IMG/VR virus record: IMGVR_UViG_3300035670_000245
Coordinates: 1-58,119 of that record
DNA: 58,119 bases
Strand: one strand, 5' to 3'
From: a virus
Position 1 is the stretch's first letter. Each line of letters starts with the position of its first letter. The notes under the pieces were generated by a model that saw only the letters and a list, made by a program, of their open reading frames with translations, did no database searches and was not told the DNA's origin. A program made the position numbers and the translations under genes. Shown here piece by piece: positions 1 through 58,119 of this stretch.

Positions 1-127
1 AAACCCAATGAAAGGAAATTGAAAATGAGATCAATCGCCGCTACTTTCGCCTTGTTTTTCATCCTCATGGCTTTGCCATGCTTTGCCATTGCAGCAGTAC
101 TGCCTTTCGGCAGTGCTGAGTCATTGT
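1..127. repeat. Left copy of 127-bp terminal direct repeat
   Basis: These bases are identical to the last 127 bases of the window (57,993-58,119). A perfect end overlap of exactly 127 bases equals a k-mer size widely used by short-read assemblers. It is therefore best read as the overlap left when a circular or circularly permuted genome is assembled, not as a biological terminal repeat. Removing one copy gives a 57,992-bp circle and joins the control region to the first gene. Confidence 0.93.
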
Positions 128-192
128 TGTTTCTCTGCCTTGCCATTGGTCATGTTTTTCTAGCCTTTTCCGCTTCCATTGCTGCACATTAA
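25..192 (+). CDS. Small membrane or exported protein (55 aa), first left-arm gene
   Basis: A 55-codon frame starts at ATG after AAAGGA, 9 nt upstream. The product has an Arg near the N-terminus, a hydrophobic run (residues 4-26) with an AxA-like signal-peptidase site around residues 21-24, and a second hydrophobic stretch (33-54). It could be a two-pass membrane peptide or a secreted peptide. It is the first gene right of the control region. Its ribosome binding site lies in the base of the large stem-loop at 57,910-58,007 (circular numbering), which suggests translational control. Two strong hairpins (66-80 and 95-118) lie inside the frame. Its first 103 bases recur at 58,017-58,119 only because of the assembly overlap. 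I do not recognise the family. Confidence 0.6.
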   Translation: MRSIAATFALFFILMALPCFAIAAVLPFGSAESLLFLCLAIGHVFLAFSASIAAH

Positions 193-225: not shown

Positions 226-960
226 ATGAAATCGAACCTCGCAATCATCGAAGATGCCGCCAAGTTTAACCTCGCCAAGTCTGACCCGAAACCGAAGGTT
301 CAGACAGTCGCTCAGGGAGTGAAACTCCCTGTCCTGAAAGAAACCAACCCGATCTTCGATCGGCCTTTCGGAAAAGATGGTCACACTCTAGGGGAAGCCC
401 TAGAGCATCAGGCATCAGTTTACAAGTCCCTTGTAAAACAGCGCAAAAATCAGCTTGAAAAGCTGAAGGAAATCGGCTTAGTCCTCTTGGAGCTTCGCTC
501 TGTATCCGGGGCTTCAAACAAAGATTATGGCATCCTGGTGTCGAAGACACCACTTTCCATAATGTCTCGCCAAGATCGGTACGATGCCTTGTGGCTTGCC
601 GAAAACTGGACTAATGTCCAGTCATACATGAAGGAGATGGATATCTCCTCGGGATCTGCCGCTTATCTTCGTCAGAAAATGACGAAGAAGACAGATGCTG
701 AACCGAAGGTTCAAAATGAGGTAAAGACTGATGCGAAGCCTTCGGCTGGTACGCAGTCTTCAGAGAAACCGGCTATCGACGAAGCTTCGTCAATACCTAC
801 CGAAGGTAAGACCGAAAACAAGACCTCTACCGAAGGTAGTGACTCGGCTGAGGTTTCGGTGGATAACGAAGAAGACTTTGCTTTGAGCATGGCTCAAATC
901 GTGGAGCAGTCCGGCCTTGACCTTAAAAAGGTCATTAACGCTCTTTTGAAACTTGCCTAA
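226..960 (+). CDS. Hypothetical protein (244 aa) whose gene is studded with hairpins
   Basis: ATG follows an AAAGGA ribosome site that itself lies in a 5-bp GAA-loop hairpin (207-219). The N-terminal 150 residues look like a folded, mainly helical domain with a charged helix around residues 65-90. Residues 155-215 are low complexity and rich in Lys, Glu, Ser and Thr, with repeats of the type TEGKTE. The last 30 residues form an acidic then hydrophobic tail. No family is recognised. About twenty short hairpins lie within the frame, several encoding repeated KxK, TEG or SEK patterns, so part of the amino-acid sequence may be a by-product of nucleic-acid structure. The frame is long, open and has a good start, so it is probably translated. 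Confidence 0.7.
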   Translation: MKSNLAIIEDAAKFNLAKSDPKPKVQTVAQGVKLPVLKETNPIFDRPFGKDGHTLGEALEHQASVYKSLVKQRKNQLEKLKEIGLVLLELRSVSGASNKDYGILVSKTPLSIMSRQDRYDALWLAENWTNVQSYMKEMDISSGSAAYLRQKMTKKTDAEPKVQNEVKTDAKPSAGTQSSEKPAIDEASSIPTEGKTENKTSTEGSDSAEVSVDNEEDFALSMAQIVEQSGLDLKKVINALLKLA

Positions 961-2995: not shown

Positions 2996-3011
2996 TGACG
3001 AACCTTCGTCA
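2996..3011 (+). repeat. Palindromic repeat copy
   Basis: TGACGAACCTTCGTCA begins directly after the TAA of the preceding gene and ends 20 nt before the next ATG. Confidence 0.9.
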
Positions 3012-3394: not shown

Positions 3395-3410
3395 TGACGA
3401 ACCTTCGTCA
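3395..3410 (+). repeat. Palindromic repeat copy
   Basis: TGACGAACCTTCGTCA followed by ATAGGAG. Here the ribosome binding site abuts the palindrome and the ATG is 15 nt away. Confidence 0.9.
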
Positions 3411-16937: not shown

Positions 16938-17791
16938 TGAATCACCCTGCCGAGATTAAAGTACACCAGTACCTGTCCAATGTACAGGCCGGTGAGGCTA
17001 CACTGAGTGATGAGGTCATTGACCAGATCACCACAGATGTACGCAATGCCCTGGTGAAACAATTCTCTAAGAGAGATAAAAACTTTCGATTGAGAATGTC
17101 TAATATCGGCAGGGATTACTGCCAGCTATGGTTCGACAAGAACGATCCAGATGCAGCAGTGCCATTCTCTACAAACTTTATCATCAACATGATGATAGGG
17201 GATATTGTAGAGGCAGTCTTCAAAGGGTTGTTAGTTCAATCGGGTGTGTCCTTCACCAACGGTGAGAAGGTTGTATGGGATCTAGGATCTGTCGCAATAG
17301 AGGGCACACCCGACCTCATTATGGATGGCAAGGTAGACGATGTTAAGTCTGCTAGCCCCTGGTCTTACGAAAATAAGTTTAAAGACTACGCCACATTGGC
17401 AGAGAAAGATTCCTTTGGTTATGTGGCCCAGCTTGTAGGATATGCCGAAGCTGCCAAGGTACAGCCTGGAGGCTGGTGGGTAGTCAACAAAGCTAACGGC
17501 GAGTTCAAGTATGTATCTGCTGAAGGTGCCGAGGTTGCACCTGTTGCGGAGAATACAAAGGCATTAGCCGCAAAGCTTGCGGAGAATAAGTTTGAACGGT
17601 GCTATGAGGCACAGGAAGAAACCTACCGCAAGAAACCTACAGGCAACATGATACTAGGTAGGGATTGTCAATGGTGTAGCTACAGATACAAGTGCTGGCC
17701 TGGATTGAAAGAGATGCCTAGCCTTGTGTCCCAGGCTGAAGACAAACCCATTGTTGCTTATGTAAAGATTGACGAGAAGTATGCCGTATAA
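16937..17791 (+). CDS. PD-(D/E)XK exonuclease with a probable 4Fe-4S cluster
   Basis: A 284-residue nuclease of the RecB/Cas4 kind. The core reads GTPDLIMDG (about residues 122-130) then DDVKSA (about 133-138). Four cysteines fit a Cas4/AddB-type iron-sulphur cluster: one in DYCQLW (about 60) and three in DCQWCSYRYKC (about 242-252). It takes the place of the T7 gp6 exonuclease and may process 5' ends in recombination or degrade host DNA. It is coupled to the SSB gene (ATG in its stop). Confidence 0.8.
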   Translation: MNHPAEIKVHQYLSNVQAGEATLSDEVIDQITTDVRNALVKQFSKRDKNFRLRMSNIGRDYCQLWFDKNDPDAAVPFSTNFIINMMIGDIVEAVFKGLLVQSGVSFTNGEKVVWDLGSVAIEGTPDLIMDGKVDDVKSASPWSYENKFKDYATLAEKDSFGYVAQLVGYAEAAKVQPGGWWVVNKANGEFKYVSAEGAEVAPVAENTKALAAKLAENKFERCYEAQEETYRKKPTGNMILGRDCQWCSYRYKCWPGLKEMPSLVSQAEDKPIVAYVKIDEKYAV

Positions 17792-18227
17792 GAAAAAGAA
17801 TCATTGGTCTGCTGTGAAGAAGTCTGCGTTCCGCAGTGGGCTGGAAGAAAAGGTACAAAAGTATCTCACTGATAATGGTGTCTCTTTTAGGTACGAGACT
17901 ACCAAGATCCAATGGGAAGACAGAATGATTCGGAAATACACACCTGACTTCATTCTGCCTAACGGGATTATCATAGAGACAAAAGGTTTATTCACACCAG
18001 CAGACAGGAGGAAACACAAAGAGATTAAGAGGCAGCACCTATTCTTGGAGATCCGGTTTGTATTTGAGAATAGTAAACGCAAGATAAGCAAGCATAGTAA
18101 AACTACCTATGCTGACTGGTGTGATCAACAAGGTATTATATGGGCCGACAAAGTAGTGCCACTAGAATGGGCATTGGAAGAAGGCCACTGGGAAAATTTA
18201 TTTGACTACGAAGGAGTAAGAGTATGA
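17781..18227 (+). CDS. Endonuclease I (Holliday junction resolvase)
   Basis: Like T7 gp3. The active site pattern is present: Glu in FRSGLEEKV (about residue 20), PDF (about 55), then ETKG (about 65-68). Length (148 aa) matches T7 endonuclease I. ATG is chosen over an upstream TTG in the preceding gene. It resolves branched replication DNA before packaging and can digest host DNA. Confidence 0.9.
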   Translation: MPYKKKNHWSAVKKSAFRSGLEEKVQKYLTDNGVSFRYETTKIQWEDRMIRKYTPDFILPNGIIIETKGLFTPADRRKHKEIKRQHLFLEIRFVFENSKRKISKHSKTTYADWCDQQGIIWADKVVPLEWALEEGHWENLFDYEGVRV

Positions 18228-20729: not shown

Positions 20730-21740
20730 ATGACACCATACTCGACTTACATAGCCAAGTCCCGCTACTCTCGTTTCCTTAACACAGAGAACCGGCGGGA
20801 GAACTGGAACGAAACTGTAACCCGTTACTTCAACTTTATGGAGGATCACCTAGCTAAAAATTATAGCTATAATTTAACCCGTGATCTTCGTACCAAACTA
20901 GAGAATGCCGTACTAAACCTGGAAGTAATGCCCAGCATGAGGGCACTAATGACTGCAGGTAAGGCACTTGAACGGGACAACACTGCCGGTTACAATTGTT
21001 CATACATCCCTATTGATGACCCCAAAGCTTTCGATGAAGCTATGTACATTTTACTATGTGGAACGGGCGTAGGTTTCTCTGTGGAGCAGAAGTATGTCAA
21101 TCAATTACCTGAAGTACCCGATCAACTTTTTGATAGTCAAACTACTATCGTGGTTTCCGATTCAAAGGAAGGGTGGGCTAAAGCACTACGACAGCTACTG
21201 GCTCTTCTTTATTCTGGTGAAGTTGCAAAGTGGGATCTATCGAAGGTTAGGCCAGCGGGTGCTAGACTTAAGACATTTGGAGGACGAGCCAGTGGCCCCG
21301 CCCCACTGGAAGAGTTATTTAAATTTACCATCGCTAAATTCCGAGGTGCATTGGGTCGCCGTCTCACTTCGATTGAATGCCATGATATTCTGTGCAAGAT
21401 CGGGGAAGTTGTTGTGGTTGGCGGGGTGCGTAGATCGGCAATGATCTCTCTGTCGGATCTTGAGGATGACAAGATGCGGCACTGTAAGTCCGGTGCATGG
21501 TGGGAACAGAACGGGCAACGGGCACTAGCAAATAACTCAGCTACATATGTACAGAAACCTGACACAAGTCAGTTCCTGCATGAGTGGACAAGCTTATATG
21601 ATTCACACAGTGGTGAGCGAGGTATCTTTAGTCGTGAGGCATCGATTAAGCAAGCCGCTAAAAACGGGCGTAGGAACCCTGACTACGAGTTTGGTACCAA
21701 TCCATGCTCAGAGATCATATTGCGGCCTTACCAATTCTGT
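20730..21740 (+). CDS. nrdJ: Class II ribonucleotide reductase, exon 1
   Basis: First part of a monomeric B12-dependent ribonucleoside-triphosphate reductase, which makes dNTPs from NTPs. It holds the N-terminal ATP-cone-less core, the SMR(A)L substrate-binding region (about residues 72-78), the GTGVGFSVE loop (about 111-119) and the active-site NPCSEI (about 325-330). The frame meets a stop just inside the intron, so unspliced RNA would give a truncated protein of 337 aa. Joined to exon 2 at Cys337/Asn338 the product reads PYQFCNLTEVV and is 629 aa. ATG follows TTAGGAG. Confidence 0.92.
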
Positions 21741-22486
21741 TAATTTTAGCAGCCTTACATAGTAATATGTATTGCAAACCGTGTGAATTCAGGGGAAGTC
21801 CAGACCGGATAATCCTGACCCAAGTTAAATCGGGGGCAACGACTAGTCGAAAGACGTACACTCAAGCGAGTGGAAGCGCACGGCACCCTCATGGGGTGAT
21901 GATATAGTCTAAGCTGCATAGGAATATGCAGATGGGTGTTGACTAACAAACTTTGTTGTGATATAACTAATGTGTAAACTTTAAAAGTTACAGAACTCAA
22001 AGGAGGTTAGTCAGGTGGAAAGAAATAGAGAAGGTTACTTGGTTTCAGATACGCATAGAGAGTGTACTAATTGCAAGTGCATATTTGAAAAGACAAGTAA
22101 AATGACGTTGTGTAAAACGTGTAACAGTGAAAGAGTTAAGTCACAGACACCAGAGTGGAAAATGCACCAAAGGGCAAAACAGCGGAGTAAAGAAACTGGC
22201 AGGGAATTCAGCTTGTTGGTTTCTGATATAGTAATACCCGATGTCTGCCCCATATTGGGGATTAAATTGAATATGAATTCTGGTAAATCTGGTGCTTATA
22301 GAAACTCACCTTCACTTGATCGCATAGACAATAGTAGAGGCTACACTAAAGATAACATTCAAGTTATCTCTCAGTTAGCAAATGCAATGAAATGTCATGC
22401 GACTAACTCTGAGTTACATATGTTTGCACAATGGGTTCTTTCCAATGTCCCTGCCGCAGAGTAGCGAACTGCGGTGAATACAACTG
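21741..22486 (+). ncRNA. Group I intron in the ribonucleotide reductase gene
   Basis: A 746-nt insert. The 5' exon ends in U and the intron ends in G, as group I splicing needs. Core elements are visible: AATTCAGGGGAAGTCC (P/Q region), AACGACTAG (R region, P7 5') and GATATAGTCTAA (S region, P7 3'). Removing it restores the reading frame exactly. It sits next to a conserved active-site sequence, as is typical for phage introns, and carries an HNH homing endonuclease in its 3' half. Confidence 0.9.
22015..22464 (+). CDS. Intron-encoded HNH homing endonuclease
   Basis: GTG start after AAAGGAGG. The 149-residue product has an N-terminal CTNCKC...CKTC zinc ribbon (about residues 17-40) and an HNH-type core, CPILGIKLN, then SLDRIDNSRGYTKDNIQVIS (about 98-117). 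Such proteins cut intronless alleles near the insertion site to spread the intron. The core ends before the intron 3' splice site, so it is fully inside the intron. Confidence 0.88.
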   Translation: MERNREGYLVSDTHRECTNCKCIFEKTSKMTLCKTCNSERVKSQTPEWKMHQRAKQRSKETGREFSLLVSDIVIPDVCPILGIKLNMNSGKSGAYRNSPSLDRIDNSRGYTKDNIQVISQLANAMKCHATNSELHMFAQWVLSNVPAAE

Positions 22487-23365
22487 AATCTTACAGAAGT
22501 AGTCATTAGAGCAATGGACACTGTAGAAGATGTAGCCCGTAAGGTTGAGATTGCTACAATCTTAGGTACATTCCAATCAACCATGACACATTTCCCTTAC
22601 CTGCGTAAGATCTGGCAGAAGAATACAGAGGAAGAAAGGTTGCTGGGTGTATCCTTTACTGGTATTCTAGATAACGAATGGATGGGGAAAGTAAGCGATG
22701 AAACTGCAAAGAACTTGGAACAACTTAAGAGTGTCGCCGTGGATACCAACCTTCAGTTTAGCAATCTGCTTGGGATTCCCCAGTCGGCTGCGATCACTTG
22801 TGTCAAACCTAGCGGTACTGTGTCTCAGCTTGTTGATTCTGCCTCTGGCATTCATACTCGACATAGCGATTATTATATTCGTAGGGTTAGAGGAGATAAG
22901 AAAGACCCTCTCACGGCTTTTCTAACCAAGGCAGGCATCCCTACAGAAGATTGTGTCATGCGGCCTGAGAGTACGGCAGTATTCTCATTCCCAATGAAAG
23001 CGCCAGAAGGTGCCCGAACACGGGAAGATCTGACAGCTATCCAGCATCTGGATCTGTGGCTAATGTATCAGCGTCATTGGTGTGAGCATAAGCCGTCTGT
23101 CACCATCTCTGTGAAAGAAGATGAGTGGATGGATGTAGGTGCCTGGGTGTGGAAGAACTTCAGTGAGATATCTGGCGTGTCTTTCTTGCCGTATGATGGT
23201 GGCACCTATCGTCAGGCACCATATGAGGAATGCACAAAGGAGCAGTACGAAGAACTGTTGGCAAAAATGCCAACAACTATTGACTGGGATTCTCTGATAG
23301 AATATGATGATAATGTCGAGGGAGTGCAGACATTAGCTTGTACAGGTTCTTCTTGCGAAATCTAG
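22487..23365 (+). CDS. nrdJ: Class II ribonucleotide reductase, exon 2
   Basis: Continues the reductase from AAT (NLTEVVIRAMD...). It carries the KPSGTVSQL phosphate-binding region (about residue 98 of this part) and ends CTGSSCEI, the C-terminal Cys pair that re-reduces the active site. Taken alone it would seem to begin at the ATG at 22,514, but the sequence before it is coding after splicing. Confidence 0.92.
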   Translation, partial: NLTEVVIRAMDTVEDVARKVEIATILGTFQSTMTHFPYLRKIWQKNTEEERLLGVSFTGILDNEWMGKVSDETAKNLEQLKSVAVDTNLQFSNLLGIPQSAAITCVKPSGTVSQLVDSASGIHTRHSDYYIRRVRGDKKDPLTAFLTKAGIPTEDCVMRPESTAVFSFPMKAPEGARTREDLTAIQHLDLWLMYQRHWCEHKPSVTISVKEDEWMDVGAWVWKNFSEISGVSFLPYDGGTYRQAPYEECTKEQYEELLAKMPTTIDWDSLIEYDDNVEGVQTLACTGSSCEI

Positions 23366-34127: not shown

Positions 34128-34580
34128 TTACTCTGGTTTAGAAGGCCATGTAACGGACCAAGGAAAGCCAGCTTGAACAGTGATATCACGCAATGCTTGG
34201 CAATAGTCAATCCATGCTTGACTAGGATTCATGTCACTGCGAAAACGCCAATCTGTTTCTGCCAATAAACGATTACGTTCATTTCTAATATCGTTTTCCT
34301 TAGCTTGTTTTATGTTTTGCTGTTCTTCAGTAGACAGAGCCACTGTCTGCCATGTGTGTGTCCATTGTCCATTTGTAAGGACAGGAGTCCCCCACACAAG
34401 GCGCTGTGTAGCAGCGTTATAACTAGGCTCTGCTGTAGAAACTACAGGGTACACACCCCATTCAGCAAGTGTTTGATCACTTGGGTTTTTAGGGAATGAA
34501 ACATTTGGGTTGTCTTTCCGAAGCTGACCGATTGAGTACGGATATGTCTCGACCGCTCCGTTGGTTACTTTGACGTACAT
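34128..34580 (-). CDS. Tail fibre assembly chaperone-like protein (150 aa)
   Basis: A C-terminal domain NERNRLLAETDWRFRSDMN...WIDYCQALRDI (about residues 100-135) matches the phage tail assembly chaperone domain. The N-terminal half (VKVTNGAVETYPYSIGQLR) is typical too. Position after the fibre and propeller genes fits a chaperone for one of them. Confidence 0.75.
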   Translation of the reverse strand: MYVKVTNGAVETYPYSIGQLRKDNPNVSFPKNPSDQTLAEWGVYPVVSTAEPSYNAATQRLVWGTPVLTNGQWTHTWQTVALSTEEQQNIKQAKENDIRNERNRLLAETDWRFRSDMNPSQAWIDYCQALRDITVQAGFPWSVTWPSKPE

Positions 34581-34581
34581 T

Positions 34582-34818
34582 TTATTTCTCCAATTGAGAT
34601 TGAATTACTTCCAACATAATTTTGGCTTTACTTTGCTCATAAAGACTTGTTTTTAATAAATTTTCTAATTGATTTTTGAAGTCTACAAAATATTCATCGT
34701 TTTTTATTTTGTTAATTGCCAAACGAAAATTGTCTATATTTACTTGATACTCTGTCACCTCTTTAATTCGTGTTTCAAAAGCTTTTTTTAACAATTCATT
34801 TTTGTATTGTTCATCCAT
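34582..34818 (-). CDS. Hypothetical helical protein (78 aa)
   Basis: Starts at ATG 34,818, after the propeller gene. Almost entirely helical and charged, likely a coiled-coil accessory to the fibre genes. Not recognised. Confidence 0.55.
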   Translation of the reverse strand: MDEQYKNELLKKAFETRIKEVTEYQVNIDNFRLAINKIKNDEYFVDFKNQLENLLKTSLYEQSKAKIMLEVIQSQLEK

Positions 34819-34827
34819 TGTCTATCC

Positions 34828-35895
34828 TTATTGTTCTTGAGCTAAAAAAAGCTGTCTAAAGCTGTCGGTAGATGATGCGTTTGAATATTTAGACCCAAAT
34901 CCACTGCTACTCCACGCATATGCTTCAATTGCATTAGATCCAGACATTATTATTGCATCATCATCAATTGAAAAAGTTACGCCACCTGACCCGCTTGCTG
35001 GCAATGTTGCTGGGTCAGAATATTTTGTACCAAACCCTGTGCTATCAGACCAAGGATATACTATTATATAAGGAGATGAATTAGACAAGACAGCGACGTA
35101 GTCCCCAGCGTGGCTAAAACATAAACCGTTACAAGATCCAGGTGGCACGGTGCTTGGGTTTGAAAAGGCACTACCAAAACCTGTGCTATACGCCCAAGGA
35201 TAAACTCTTATGTAAGGAGAACCAAACCCACTATCGCTTGTATGGGCAACAGAACTTCCAGACGGTGAAACGGCTACTTTTGGTTGACCCCCTGAAGAAA
35301 TTGCAGATCCAGGATCAGAATATTTTGTGCCAAATCCTGTGCTATCGCTCCACTGATATGCATGCAAAGCTGCCCCAAAAAAACCCCCATCCCTACAAAA
35401 AAATATAACATCGTTGTTTGGGTGAAAAACAACAGATCTCCAACTGTTGTCAGATGTGGCTGGGTTAGCGTATTTTGTACCAAATCCAGAGCCAGACCAT
35501 GCCCATGCCATAGATCCGTTACTTTCTGCCCCAGCCACTCCTAAAACAGTTTGATTGGGGTTCCAAGCCATACCATAACAAGTACCAGTCGGTAAAGTAG
35601 ATGGATTAGAAAATTTAGTTCCTATTGTTCCACTTGTAAAAGGCCATGTATGTATATAAGGAGAAGAGTCACTACAACCCGCAATTACAGTTGCATCTGG
35701 GGATATTGCACAACCCCATGCCTCTGACGAAAGTGAACTATTGGCTGTTGATATTAATGATCCAAACCCACTACCAGAATCCCACTCATATACAACCAAT
35801 CTATCATTAGTAGTATCGGCGCTTACCAACCATTGCGGTTTTGCCCCGCCAGCAGAACCAGCAGTAGCCTGTAATTGATTAGTTATATCAGCCAT
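34828..35895 (-). CDS. Beta-propeller repeat protein, probable receptor-binding or tail tip component (355 aa)
   Basis: Six clear repeats of about 40-50 residues share the pattern xxV(A/S)FSPxxxxxAxxxxxSPYIxVYPWxxxxGFG followed by (K/A)YSxPxxxP (first from residue 56). An N-terminal strand set (LVVYEWDSGSGFG) can close with the C-terminal FRQLFLAQEQ strand, so a seven-bladed propeller with a velcro closure is likely. No enzyme motif. It overlaps the tail fibre stop, so it is probably a host-recognition or adaptor subunit. Confidence 0.65.
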   Translation of the reverse strand: MADITNQLQATAGSAGGAKPQWLVSADTTNDRLVVYEWDSGSGFGSLISTANSSLSSEAWGCAISPDATVIAGCSDSSPYIHTWPFTSGTIGTKFSNPSTLPTGTCYGMAWNPNQTVLGVAGAESNGSMAWAWSGSGFGTKYANPATSDNSWRSVVFHPNNDVIFFCRDGGFFGAALHAYQWSDSTGFGTKYSDPGSAISSGGQPKVAVSPSGSSVAHTSDSGFGSPYIRVYPWAYSTGFGSAFSNPSTVPPGSCNGLCFSHAGDYVAVLSNSSPYIIVYPWSDSTGFGTKYSDPATLPASGSGGVTFSIDDDAIIMSGSNAIEAYAWSSSGFGSKYSNASSTDSFRQLFLAQEQ

Positions 35896-56713: not shown

Positions 56714-56923
56714 TCACTTCCTCCATCCAAGGGAACGCATAGAAGACTCTACCTGAGCCAAAGAAAAAAGTATTCCTGTCCGTTCCTTCAAGGCAACACG
56801 AACAAAGAATACATCCGAGTGGGGTACATGTAGATTGTCTAGATAGTTCCCTACAAGTGCTTCATAGAAATCTTCTAGTACAAAATTATCACGTAGGTAT
56901 ACAGTTTTTTTAGATTTAGTCAA
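56714..56923 (-). CDS. Small protein at the head of the late operon (69 aa)
   Basis: The first gene after the late promoter at 57,181. A mixed alpha/beta protein (VYLRDNFVLEDFYEALVG...). Ends just before the start of the Lys-rich gene. Not recognised. Confidence 0.6.
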   Translation of the reverse strand: MTKSKKTVYLRDNFVLEDFYEALVGNYLDNLHVPHSDVFFVRVALKERTGILFSLAQVESSMRSLGWRK

Positions 56924-57105
56924 GCTATTTCTGCAGTTTCAAAGGTACAGATAGAAACTACACATTTAGGGGATACAGATAGTATCTATGTAGGTGTGTC
57001 ACTTTAGGTGTGACACTTAAGTGAGTGTGTGTTTTTTAGGGGTAGTCCTAAGTTTATATATGTAATGTGTTAATTACTTTATTTTATAAACTTTAAATAC
57101 ATTAC

Positions 57106-57150
57106 AGTTATATAGTTTTTTATAGTTATAATATTATATAGTTATAGTAT
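57106..57150. other. AT-only tract with TATAGTT repeats
   Basis: About 45 bases with almost only A and T, with TATAGTT repeated about four times. It would melt easily and could be the DNA-unwinding element of an origin next to the iterons. Confidence 0.5.
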
Positions 57151-57209: not shown

Positions 57210-57428
57210 GACTTATGTCAATAAAACCTAAAATAAATATTTCTGTACATCTTCTTGACGTTTAAGATTTTAGCATATTTTCTGTCCCGTGTCAAATCAC
57301 TAAGCATATGCGTCTACCGATATATGAAAACCAGTGTTAACATTTGTGTGTGATAAGGCATGTTAGTGATTACTAACTAATACTAAAAACCTGATCTGTG
57401 TAAGAGTCCATATACATATAACGCCAGA

Positions 57429-57456
57429 CCCCCCGGTGGCCCAGGCCCGGCCCCCC
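57429..57456 (-). other. G-quadruplex motif
   Basis: On the - strand GGGGGG-CC-GGG-CCT-GGG-CCACC-GGGGGG. Four G-runs with loops of 2, 3 and 5 nt make a canonical quadruplex motif, rare in a genome of moderate GC content. Confidence 0.75.
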
Positions 57457-57457
57457 T

Positions 57458-57526
57458 CGCATGATGCACGGGCGCAGGATGTCACATACGCATGATGCGA
57501 TCACGACATCACGGATAGCGCATGAT
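57458..57526 (+). repeat. Three iterons CGCATGATGC
   Basis: CGCATGATGC (57,458), CGCATGATGCG (57,489) and CGCATGAT (57,519) are spaced 31 and 30 bp, about three helical turns, so a protein could bind them on one face. Typical of origin or repressor-binding arrays. Confidence 0.65.
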
Positions 57527-57548
57527 ATTTGCTATGCAAATCAAGGGG

Positions 57549-57870
57549 TTAGATCTAAGGTTATACTGATTTCATATCAGTATCTGGTCAAAAATCGAAA
57601 GTGAACCGGGCCGATTCCGACAGGTGGTCAAAGATTGACCAGTCGGTGCATCAATTGCCCCTTTTCATTTTACAAATGAAGGGGTGGGGTCTGGTCATTG
57701 CCGAACCTTCGTCAATAAGTTTGGCTATGCCAAAAAGCTAGTTTGACCCCTTGCCAATGTAATTGGCACGGTCTGTGCTTCTGGTCGATTCCCCGAAACC
57801 GAGTCGGCTTTGCCTTGCCTCATCACATACGAAACTTCCCGTCAGCCTTTGGCTTCCTGCGTGGAAGTTT
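57549..57870 (+). repeat. Dense hairpin array (right part, joins the left part across the circle)
   Basis: Stems (bp, loop): 57,549-57,558 palindrome; 57,563-57,583 (8, TTCAT); 57,617-57,646 (5+7, AGA); 57,658-57,684 (CCCCTT and CATTT stems, TAC loop); 57,702-57,711 (degenerate palindromic repeat); 57,720-57,734 (6, TAT); 57,752-57,768 (7, GTA); 57,832-57,870 (8 outer, nested 4, TTT). It continues into the large stem-loop and then the left part. Confidence 0.85.
57702..57711 (+). repeat. Degenerate copy of the palindromic repeat
   Basis: CGAACCTTCG then TCAATAAG, matching the 3' half and AATAA flank of the repeats at 1,365-3,410, with a mismatched outer left arm. Confidence 0.65.
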
Positions 57871-57909
57871 TGGCATGGCCTTTGCTGGGGGTCAAAATCG
57901 ACCGGCAGA

Positions 57910-58007
57910 CCTTTCATGGGTTTCATGGGGACTAGTAAATTACCCCTTGAAGCTTTGGTGAAAGGGGAATAATTTACAGTCCCCTTCTTATGAAACCCAA
58001 TGAAAGG
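57910..58007 (+). promoter_or_regulatory. Large stem-loop sequestering the first gene's ribosome binding site
   Basis: CCTTTCAT pairs with ATGAAAGG, GGGTTTCAT with ATGAAACCC, GGGGACT with AGTCCCC, GTAAATT with AATTTAC, and CCCCTT with AAGGGG: about 37 bp in a 98-nt element with small bulges. The loop is GAAGCTTTGGTGA. The 3' base contains the ribosome site of the first gene, whose ATG is 10 nt away. A close relative lies at 2,491-2,544. Confidence 0.85.
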
Positions 58008-58119
58008 AAATTGAAAATGAGATCAATCGCCGCTACTTTCGCCTTGTTTTTCATCCTCATGGCTTTGCCATGCTTTGCCATTGCAGCAGTACTGCCTTTC
58101 GGCAGTGCTGAGTCATTGT
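57993..58119. repeat. Right copy of 127-bp terminal direct repeat
   Basis: Identical to the first 127 bases; see the left copy. It contains the duplicated start of the first gene (58,017 onward). Confidence 0.93.

Follow-up and report, generated by a model that had tools for sequence, protein, structure and literature searches.

Why should the start of a phage's early operon, coding sequence included, be crowded with perfect inverted repeats? The question is raised by a viral contig of 58,119 bases (the window, meaning the whole stretch that was analyzed), in which an earlier note, made from the letters alone, had described a hairpin-saturated region running across the circle junction and through a gene. 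The first and last 127 bases of the contig overlap exactly (57993-58119 and 1-127), so the genome unit is 57,992 bp, and since this overlap is the circle junction, the hairpins listed at 66 and 99 simply repeat those at about 58,058 and 58,091. Judged by its gene order and by its terminase and DNA polymerase, which are 77% and 60% identical, respectively, to those of Puniceispirillum phage HMO-2011, the window is an HMO-2011-type phage. The next closest phages by these two proteins are the Roseobacter phages CRP-1, CRP-2, and CRP-345. HMO-2011-type phages have been reported as a dominant and widely distributed marine viral group (PMC9038755). The late genes of the window run leftward from about 57.0 kb and the early genes rightward from about 57.5 kb, and the hairpin zone is the beginning of the early side. 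Elsewhere in the genome, the ribonucleotide reductase gene (20730-23365) is interrupted by a group I intron (RF00028, 21731-21931), the only Rfam match in the window, and inside this intron lies an endonuclease VII/HNH-like open reading frame (ORF) (22015-22464) that probably encodes a homing endonuclease. Another endonuclease (17769-18227) is related to Holliday-junction resolvases (phrog_945 and phrog_9019) and is a candidate actor on cruciform DNA.

We counted perfect hairpins with stems of at least 6 bp and loops of 2 to 5 nt. The coding sequence at 226-960 has 13 of them, while synonymous-codon shuffles averaged 1.2 and never exceeded 5 (0 of 1,000 reached 13); with stems of at least 7 bp, the count is 10 against 0.5 expected. 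The leader, from 57300 across the junction to 225, has 9 against 0.9 in dinucleotide shuffles (0 of 500). Chance or base composition as the source of the array is ruled out by these two kinds of shuffle, and the codon-preserving control proposed in the earlier note falls far short of the observed density. No hairpin excess over shuffles was found in the Gp88 gene (1394-2119), at 12.8 to 16.0 kb, or at 52.2 to 57.0 kb; the excess is weak at 2.1 to 4.5 kb, and most of the remaining genome is near background. Some 25 short inverted repeats, all perfect, make up the array, which runs through the early operon's leader and first gene; typically they have a 7-bp stem, a 3-nt loop, and a closing pair made of a 5' pyrimidine and a 3' purine. 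The saturated region is real, with an excess in both the leader and the gene, but its limits differ from the 57,549 to 1,378 first given: the array extends from about 57,527, directly downstream of a conserved block (57,390-57,545), to about 991, and the feature at 1365 is one of the isolated palindromes that lie beyond it (1365, 2567, 2996, and 3395).

In the leader, simple hairpins lie at 57527-57541 (atttgc-TAT-gcaaat), 57563-57583 (atactgat-TTCAT-atcagtat, the stem of which is retained with changes in relatives), 57625-57641 (tggtcaa-AGA-ttgacca), 57664-57680 (ttcattt-TAC-aaatgaa), 57720-57734 (tttggc-TAT-gccaaa), and 57752-57768 (tgccaat-GTA-attggca, identical in L103 and L106). They are followed by an 85-nt composite hairpin (57917-58001, plus strand) in the leader that precedes the first early genes. 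A small hydrophobic ORF of 55 amino acids (25-192, plus strand; also 58017 to the end) lies within the leader, before the first gene, and contains hairpins at 66-80 and 99-114; it is absent in L102, and similar ORFs are present in L103 and L105. Inside the gene, the eight triloop hairpins named in the earlier note are all present, with stems of 6 to 8 bp: 313-331 (cagggagt-GAA-actccctg), 349-363 (ccgatc-TTC-gatcgg), 419-437 (tttacaag-TCC-cttgtaaa), 450-466 (tcagctt-GAA-aagctga), 536-552 (tggtgtc-GAA-gacacca), 699-713 (tgaacc-GAA-ggttca), 882-898 (tttgagc-ATG-gctcaaa), and 918-934 (tgacctt-AAA-aaggtca). Others are found at 386-405 (ctctaggg-GAAG-ccctagag), 605-622 (actggac-TAAT-gtccagt), 632-649 (aggagat-GGAT-atctcct), and 666-688 (tcttcgtca-GAAAA-tgacgaaga), and one follows the gene end at 977-991 (ggggct-TTC-agcccc), where L102 has a different GC-rich hairpin in the same place. 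Relatives differ in both arms at once: at 349, L102 and L104 have cctatc-TTC-gatagg, a compensatory and synonymous change; at 450, L103 has tcaactt..aagttga; at 699, L102 has ctgagtc-AAA-gactcag; and at 918, L107 has tgatctt-GCA-aagatca.

The gene at 226-960 (plus strand) is the first sizeable early gene. Its product of 244 amino acids is predicted, in a model that is partly of low confidence, to have a helical core (residues 42-157), modeled with confidence, a disordered linker (158-211), and a pair of C-terminal helices (215-243). No fold match and no informative protein family was found for it, and no relatives of the gene were found by nucleotide or protein BLAST of the phage collection or in prokaryote genomes. 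Homologs are present in viral contigs (43 to 100% identity), with more distant ones in L079, L014, and L091 (30 to 39% identity to the window family, E ~1e-20), and profile alignment joins HMO-2011 gp74 and CRP-1 gp01 with the family (probability 97.5, E 8e-12).

The array is not unique to the window phage. Five of the six non-identical homologs of the window gene contain 11 to 14 hairpins against 0.9 to 1.5 expected (0 of 500 shuffles each). The homolog in L106 (5001-5687, 52% identity) has zero in-gene hairpins and retains the block and the leader hairpins. L106 keeps the protein without them, so having the gene does not strictly entail the array; stems decaying while the protein is kept, which the earlier note had set as evidence against its idea, are seen in this one case, and the five other differing homologs keep their arrays. 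The genes of L079, L014, and L091 are denser still, with 21 hairpins against 2.0 in the L079/G002 gene. Among cultured phages, HMO-2011 gp74 has 9 against 0.85, CRP-1 gp01 has 11 against 1.6, and CRP-345 gp01 has 5 against 0.8, all in the same genomic place. A second, GC-rich phage group without the gene (L017/G001, L206, and L067) has an array over the amidoligase/amidotransferase region (25 to 35 kb in L017/G001), reaching 20 hairpins per kb, and its terminase is only 24 to 28% identical to those of the best-listed phages in the collection. No array was found in the stretches read at the record ends of CRP-2, CRP-207, CRP-603, and HTVC033P or across the whole genome of phiM6.

What is conserved in these hairpins is structure. 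Among hairpins that stayed in place, the gene family shows 82 pairs with compensatory change, compared with 5 GT and 3 AC pairs, and the figures for G002-G004 are 82, compared with 17 GT and 16 AC; the counts are pairwise and so non-independent. The covariation that the earlier note had suggested looking for is there: stem changes affect both arms, and pairing is kept. Innermost loops in the gene family are most enriched at 3 nt (38 against 1.4 expected) and 4 nt (12 against 1.5), then at 2 nt (10 against 2.0) and 5 nt (4 against 1.2), and no excess over expectation is seen for loops of 6 to 14 nt. The commonest stem length is 7 bp in both the HMO-type and the GC-rich group, and in the former stems seldom exceed 8 bp. 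Triloops of the form GNA number 77 against 25 expected and those of the complement TNC 71 against 22; GAA and TTC loops are enriched, as first noticed in the window. The 5' base closing the loop is C or T in 240 of the 276 cases (C, 180; T, 60; A, 19; G, 17). Generic hairpins share no interior sequence with one another.

An RNA helix would tolerate G-U pairs and prefer one strand for its loops. G-U was not tolerated above A-C in evolving stems (17:16, 5:3, and 61:49); stems with one mismatch comprise 61 GT (51 expected) and 49 AC (53 expected), next to 371 perfect stems. Because pairing is Watson-Crick only, loops are tiny, stem lengths are modal, and GNA triloops are overrepresented on both strands, the hairpins look DNA-level rather than RNA-level. 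In these respects they are similar to DNA mini-hairpins and to N4 promoters. We therefore disfavor the folded early RNA that had been one of the roles first suggested, and we consider it unlikely that the array works in the early transcript, by nuclease protection, by blocking Rho or R-loops, or by polymerase pausing. Such a reading would fit the layout of the HMO-type array, which lies downstream of the block, along early transcription, and fades through the operon, as well as the good RNA fold of the composite leader hairpin (z of -7.3) and the somewhat greater frequency of purine loops on the coding strand of this group (AAA, 23; TTT, 5). It fits poorly with the lack of a clear G-U excess, the unenriched loops of 6 to 14 nt, and the equal enrichment of TNC and GNA; the purine bias is reversed in the GC-rich group, and in G001 the array also spans a divergently transcribed gene (34532-35119, with 8 hairpins against 0.9).

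Two elements in the region differ from the generic hairpins. In the composite hairpin at 57917-58001, 15 of the 33 pairs show double compensatory changes among seven phages, and its alignment holds 27 double-change cells against 2 one-sided ones. Its core, CCCCTTGAA..GTGAAAGGGG, can likewise be seen ahead of the start codon in HMO-2011 and G003. A second copy lies between early genes, at 2491-2543 in the window (plus strand, shorter) and at 2827-2885 in L102, and a terminator-like hairpin (2428-2446) precedes the window copy. The other element is a palindrome specific to each genome. The window form, GACGAANNTTCGTC, occurs once in the first gene (778-791) and otherwise between genes, upstream of the Gp88 gene as GACGAACCTTCGTC (1365-1378) and at 2567-2582, 2996-3011, and 3395-3410. 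There are 4 to 6 copies per genome, and the sequence differs between phages (GACGAANNTTCGTC, GTCGAANNTTCGAC, GTCCAANNTTGGAC, and TAGTCCGACAGCGGACTA). The palindrome is also present in G005, CRP-1, and HMO-2011, and within each phage the copies are altered in concert. It looks like a protein-binding site, likely that of a co-evolving regulator. Mycobacteriophage extended start-associated sequences are likewise genome-specific palindromes upstream of start codons, and they resemble only this repeated palindrome, not the generic hairpins. The reading as sequence-specific operators, in which the palindromes bind a dimeric regulator, is probably true for the subset with 4 to 6 copies per genome; as an account of the whole array, we find it very unlikely, as the remaining hairpins have no common interior sequence. 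Decoy binding of a host or phage protein, also among the roles first proposed, is disfavored when taken as sequence specific, because stem and loop sequences vary freely.

The position of the array suggests a tie to replication. It starts just downstream of the conserved block in the window, L103, L105-L107, HMO-2011, and G003. The block has the form CCTRATCTGTGTA-(spacer)-ATATAACG or a near variant, and in most cases a C-rich tract and GCAT-type repeats come next; in the window (57390-57545, plus strand), it comprises CCTRATCTGTGTA..TACATATAACGC, the C-rich tract, and CGCATGATGC repeats at 57458-57467 and 57489-57498. It lies close to a 90% AT stretch (57081-57140), a candidate unwinding element, and the GC- and AT-skew minima lie at 56,816 and 57,959. 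A promoter-like TTGACA-17-TAAAAT of the leftward late operon (57267-57295, minus strand) has 11 of 12 matches, and promoter-like sites in the region are no more numerous than in shuffles. The nearby AT-rich stretch, the CGCATGATGC repeats, and the GC-skew minimum suggest that the block is a putative replication origin or early control core. The skew minimum, AT-rich element, repeats, and conserved block expected of an origin region are all present, confounded by the coding-strand switch; the assignment is circumstantial, as the skew minima fall where the coding strand switches, and the block could be an early promoter instead.

We searched viral contigs for the block with the pattern ATCTGTGTAN{6,12}TACATATAACGC, which is blind to hairpins. 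Every newly found contig that extends far enough downstream, four in number (L225, L226, L228, and L233), carries an array, and the short contigs L231 and L232 have 4 to 6 hairpins within the first 500 nt. First genes in the contigs found in this way hold 6 to 13 hairpins against 0.9 to 1.6, and upstream counts, past the adjacent 500 nt, are at background. Hairpin density declines downstream, away from the block, and the gradient is one-sided. For the G002 genes taken from the start, the ratios to synonymous shuffles are 10.3, 7.1, 5.7, 12.1, 6.7, 7.8, 5.0, 3.8, 0, and 1.0, while the genes on the other side of the start have ratios of 0 and 1.0.

Our preferred reading, held tentatively and at a little below even probability, is that of an origin-proximal DNA hairpin or cruciform array serving replication initiation. 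What selection would keep is the capacity of this DNA to form mini-hairpins or cruciforms when the duplex near the origin becomes single-stranded or comes under negative supercoiling. At initiation, the folded strands would hinder re-annealing of the opened DNA, and the hairpins may offer replication or recombination proteins sites that are recognized by structure and independent of sequence, with the first-gene product, SSB, primase, and the phage's Holliday-junction-type nuclease as candidate partners. The computation shows the enrichment, the DNA-type rules, the structural conservation, and the position of the array, and from these we infer extrusion, the origin, and a protein partner. The DNA-type spectra, the relatives, and the origin-like neighborhood support single-strand or hairpin DNA at replication initiation as a candidate role, and the suggestion in the earlier note of a constraint on the nucleic acid itself is backed by the shuffles, the relatives, and the loop and stem spectra. 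Synonymous sites within stems mostly evolve no more slowly than those outside (the difference is significant in 2 of 12 comparisons), which fits a constraint on pairing and not on sequence.

The array could also be a mutational by-product, arising without selection from template switching or hairpin correction in single-stranded DNA near the origin. Template switching is able to generate hairpins and to maintain them (PMC8794818), and the turnover of sites, double changes without wobble intermediates, the gradient from the presumed origin, and a few inverted loops (8 among the 105 that changed) would be consistent with it. We regard it as quite unlikely: differences are not concentrated in one arm, where template switching would leave them (cases with all differences in one arm, 10 against 11.4 and 15 against 18.4 expected), the gene of a conserved protein holds extensive arrays, and stem lengths peak at 7 bp instead of showing a geometric tail, a modal length that argues for selection.

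The presence of the array in this phage and many relatives, even in a protein gene, suggests that DNA shape itself has a job that has yet to be described. We found no description in the open-access literature of a generic hairpin array running through coding sequence with an origin gradient. The hairpins may represent an undescribed class of element, namely, dozens of structure-specific, sequence-free DNA mini-hairpins arrayed near the origin, synonymously encoded in coding sequence and fading from the origin, in HMO-2011-type phages and one or more unrelated groups of phages; we put this at just short of an even chance. If such a DNA-structure code is true, protein genes are under a constraint from how their own DNA folds, to an extent for which we found no description, and the array would give a handle on replication start or cell takeover in HMO-2011-type phages and a route to locating origins in uncultured phages. 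Cultured members of this dominant marine group have the array, and selection versus mutation for DNA hairpins becomes directly testable in a growable phage.

Single functional DNA hairpins are already known from single-strand initiation sites, N4 promoters, and diversity-generating retroelement (DGR) targets. Single-strand initiation sites, the G4-type or n'-pas hairpin origins, are origin-proximal DNA hairpins recognized by shape in replication; they are few, of defined sequence, and noncoding, whereas here there are many, within coding sequence and with a gradient. The early promoters of the N4 virion RNA polymerase are C-GNA-G DNA hairpins that extrude at physiological supercoiling (PMC4496689), and many array hairpins have the same geometry of a 5- to 7-bp stem, C-G closing, and a 3-nt GNA loop. 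N4, however, relies on a small number of oriented promoters in which certain bases are required, and the array has dozens of hairpins in either orientation, 13 of them in a single gene. No N4-type virion RNA polymerase of about 3,500 amino acids was found, the longest ORF being 1,142 amino acids, and neither this protein nor the second largest, of 1,077 amino acids, has a PHROG or Pfam match, polymerase families included, so that hairpin promoters for such an enzyme are extremely unlikely. The DGR of BPP-1 requires a cruciform in which the structure of the stem counts and not its sequence (PMC3240598). Its target is likewise a short perfect DNA inverted repeat (7- to 10-bp stem, small loop), but with one hairpin per target, beside a variable repeat, and a GRNA tetraloop, whereas the loops of the array have a mode of 3 nt and its tetraloops are mixed. 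Palindromes in coding sequence are known from Nematomorpha mitochondria, in which perfect inverted repeats of up to 284 bp lie in functional protein genes (PMC6649704). Those palindromes are long and mitochondrial, whereas the array hairpins are short, have a modal stem length, and follow a gradient from an origin-like block.
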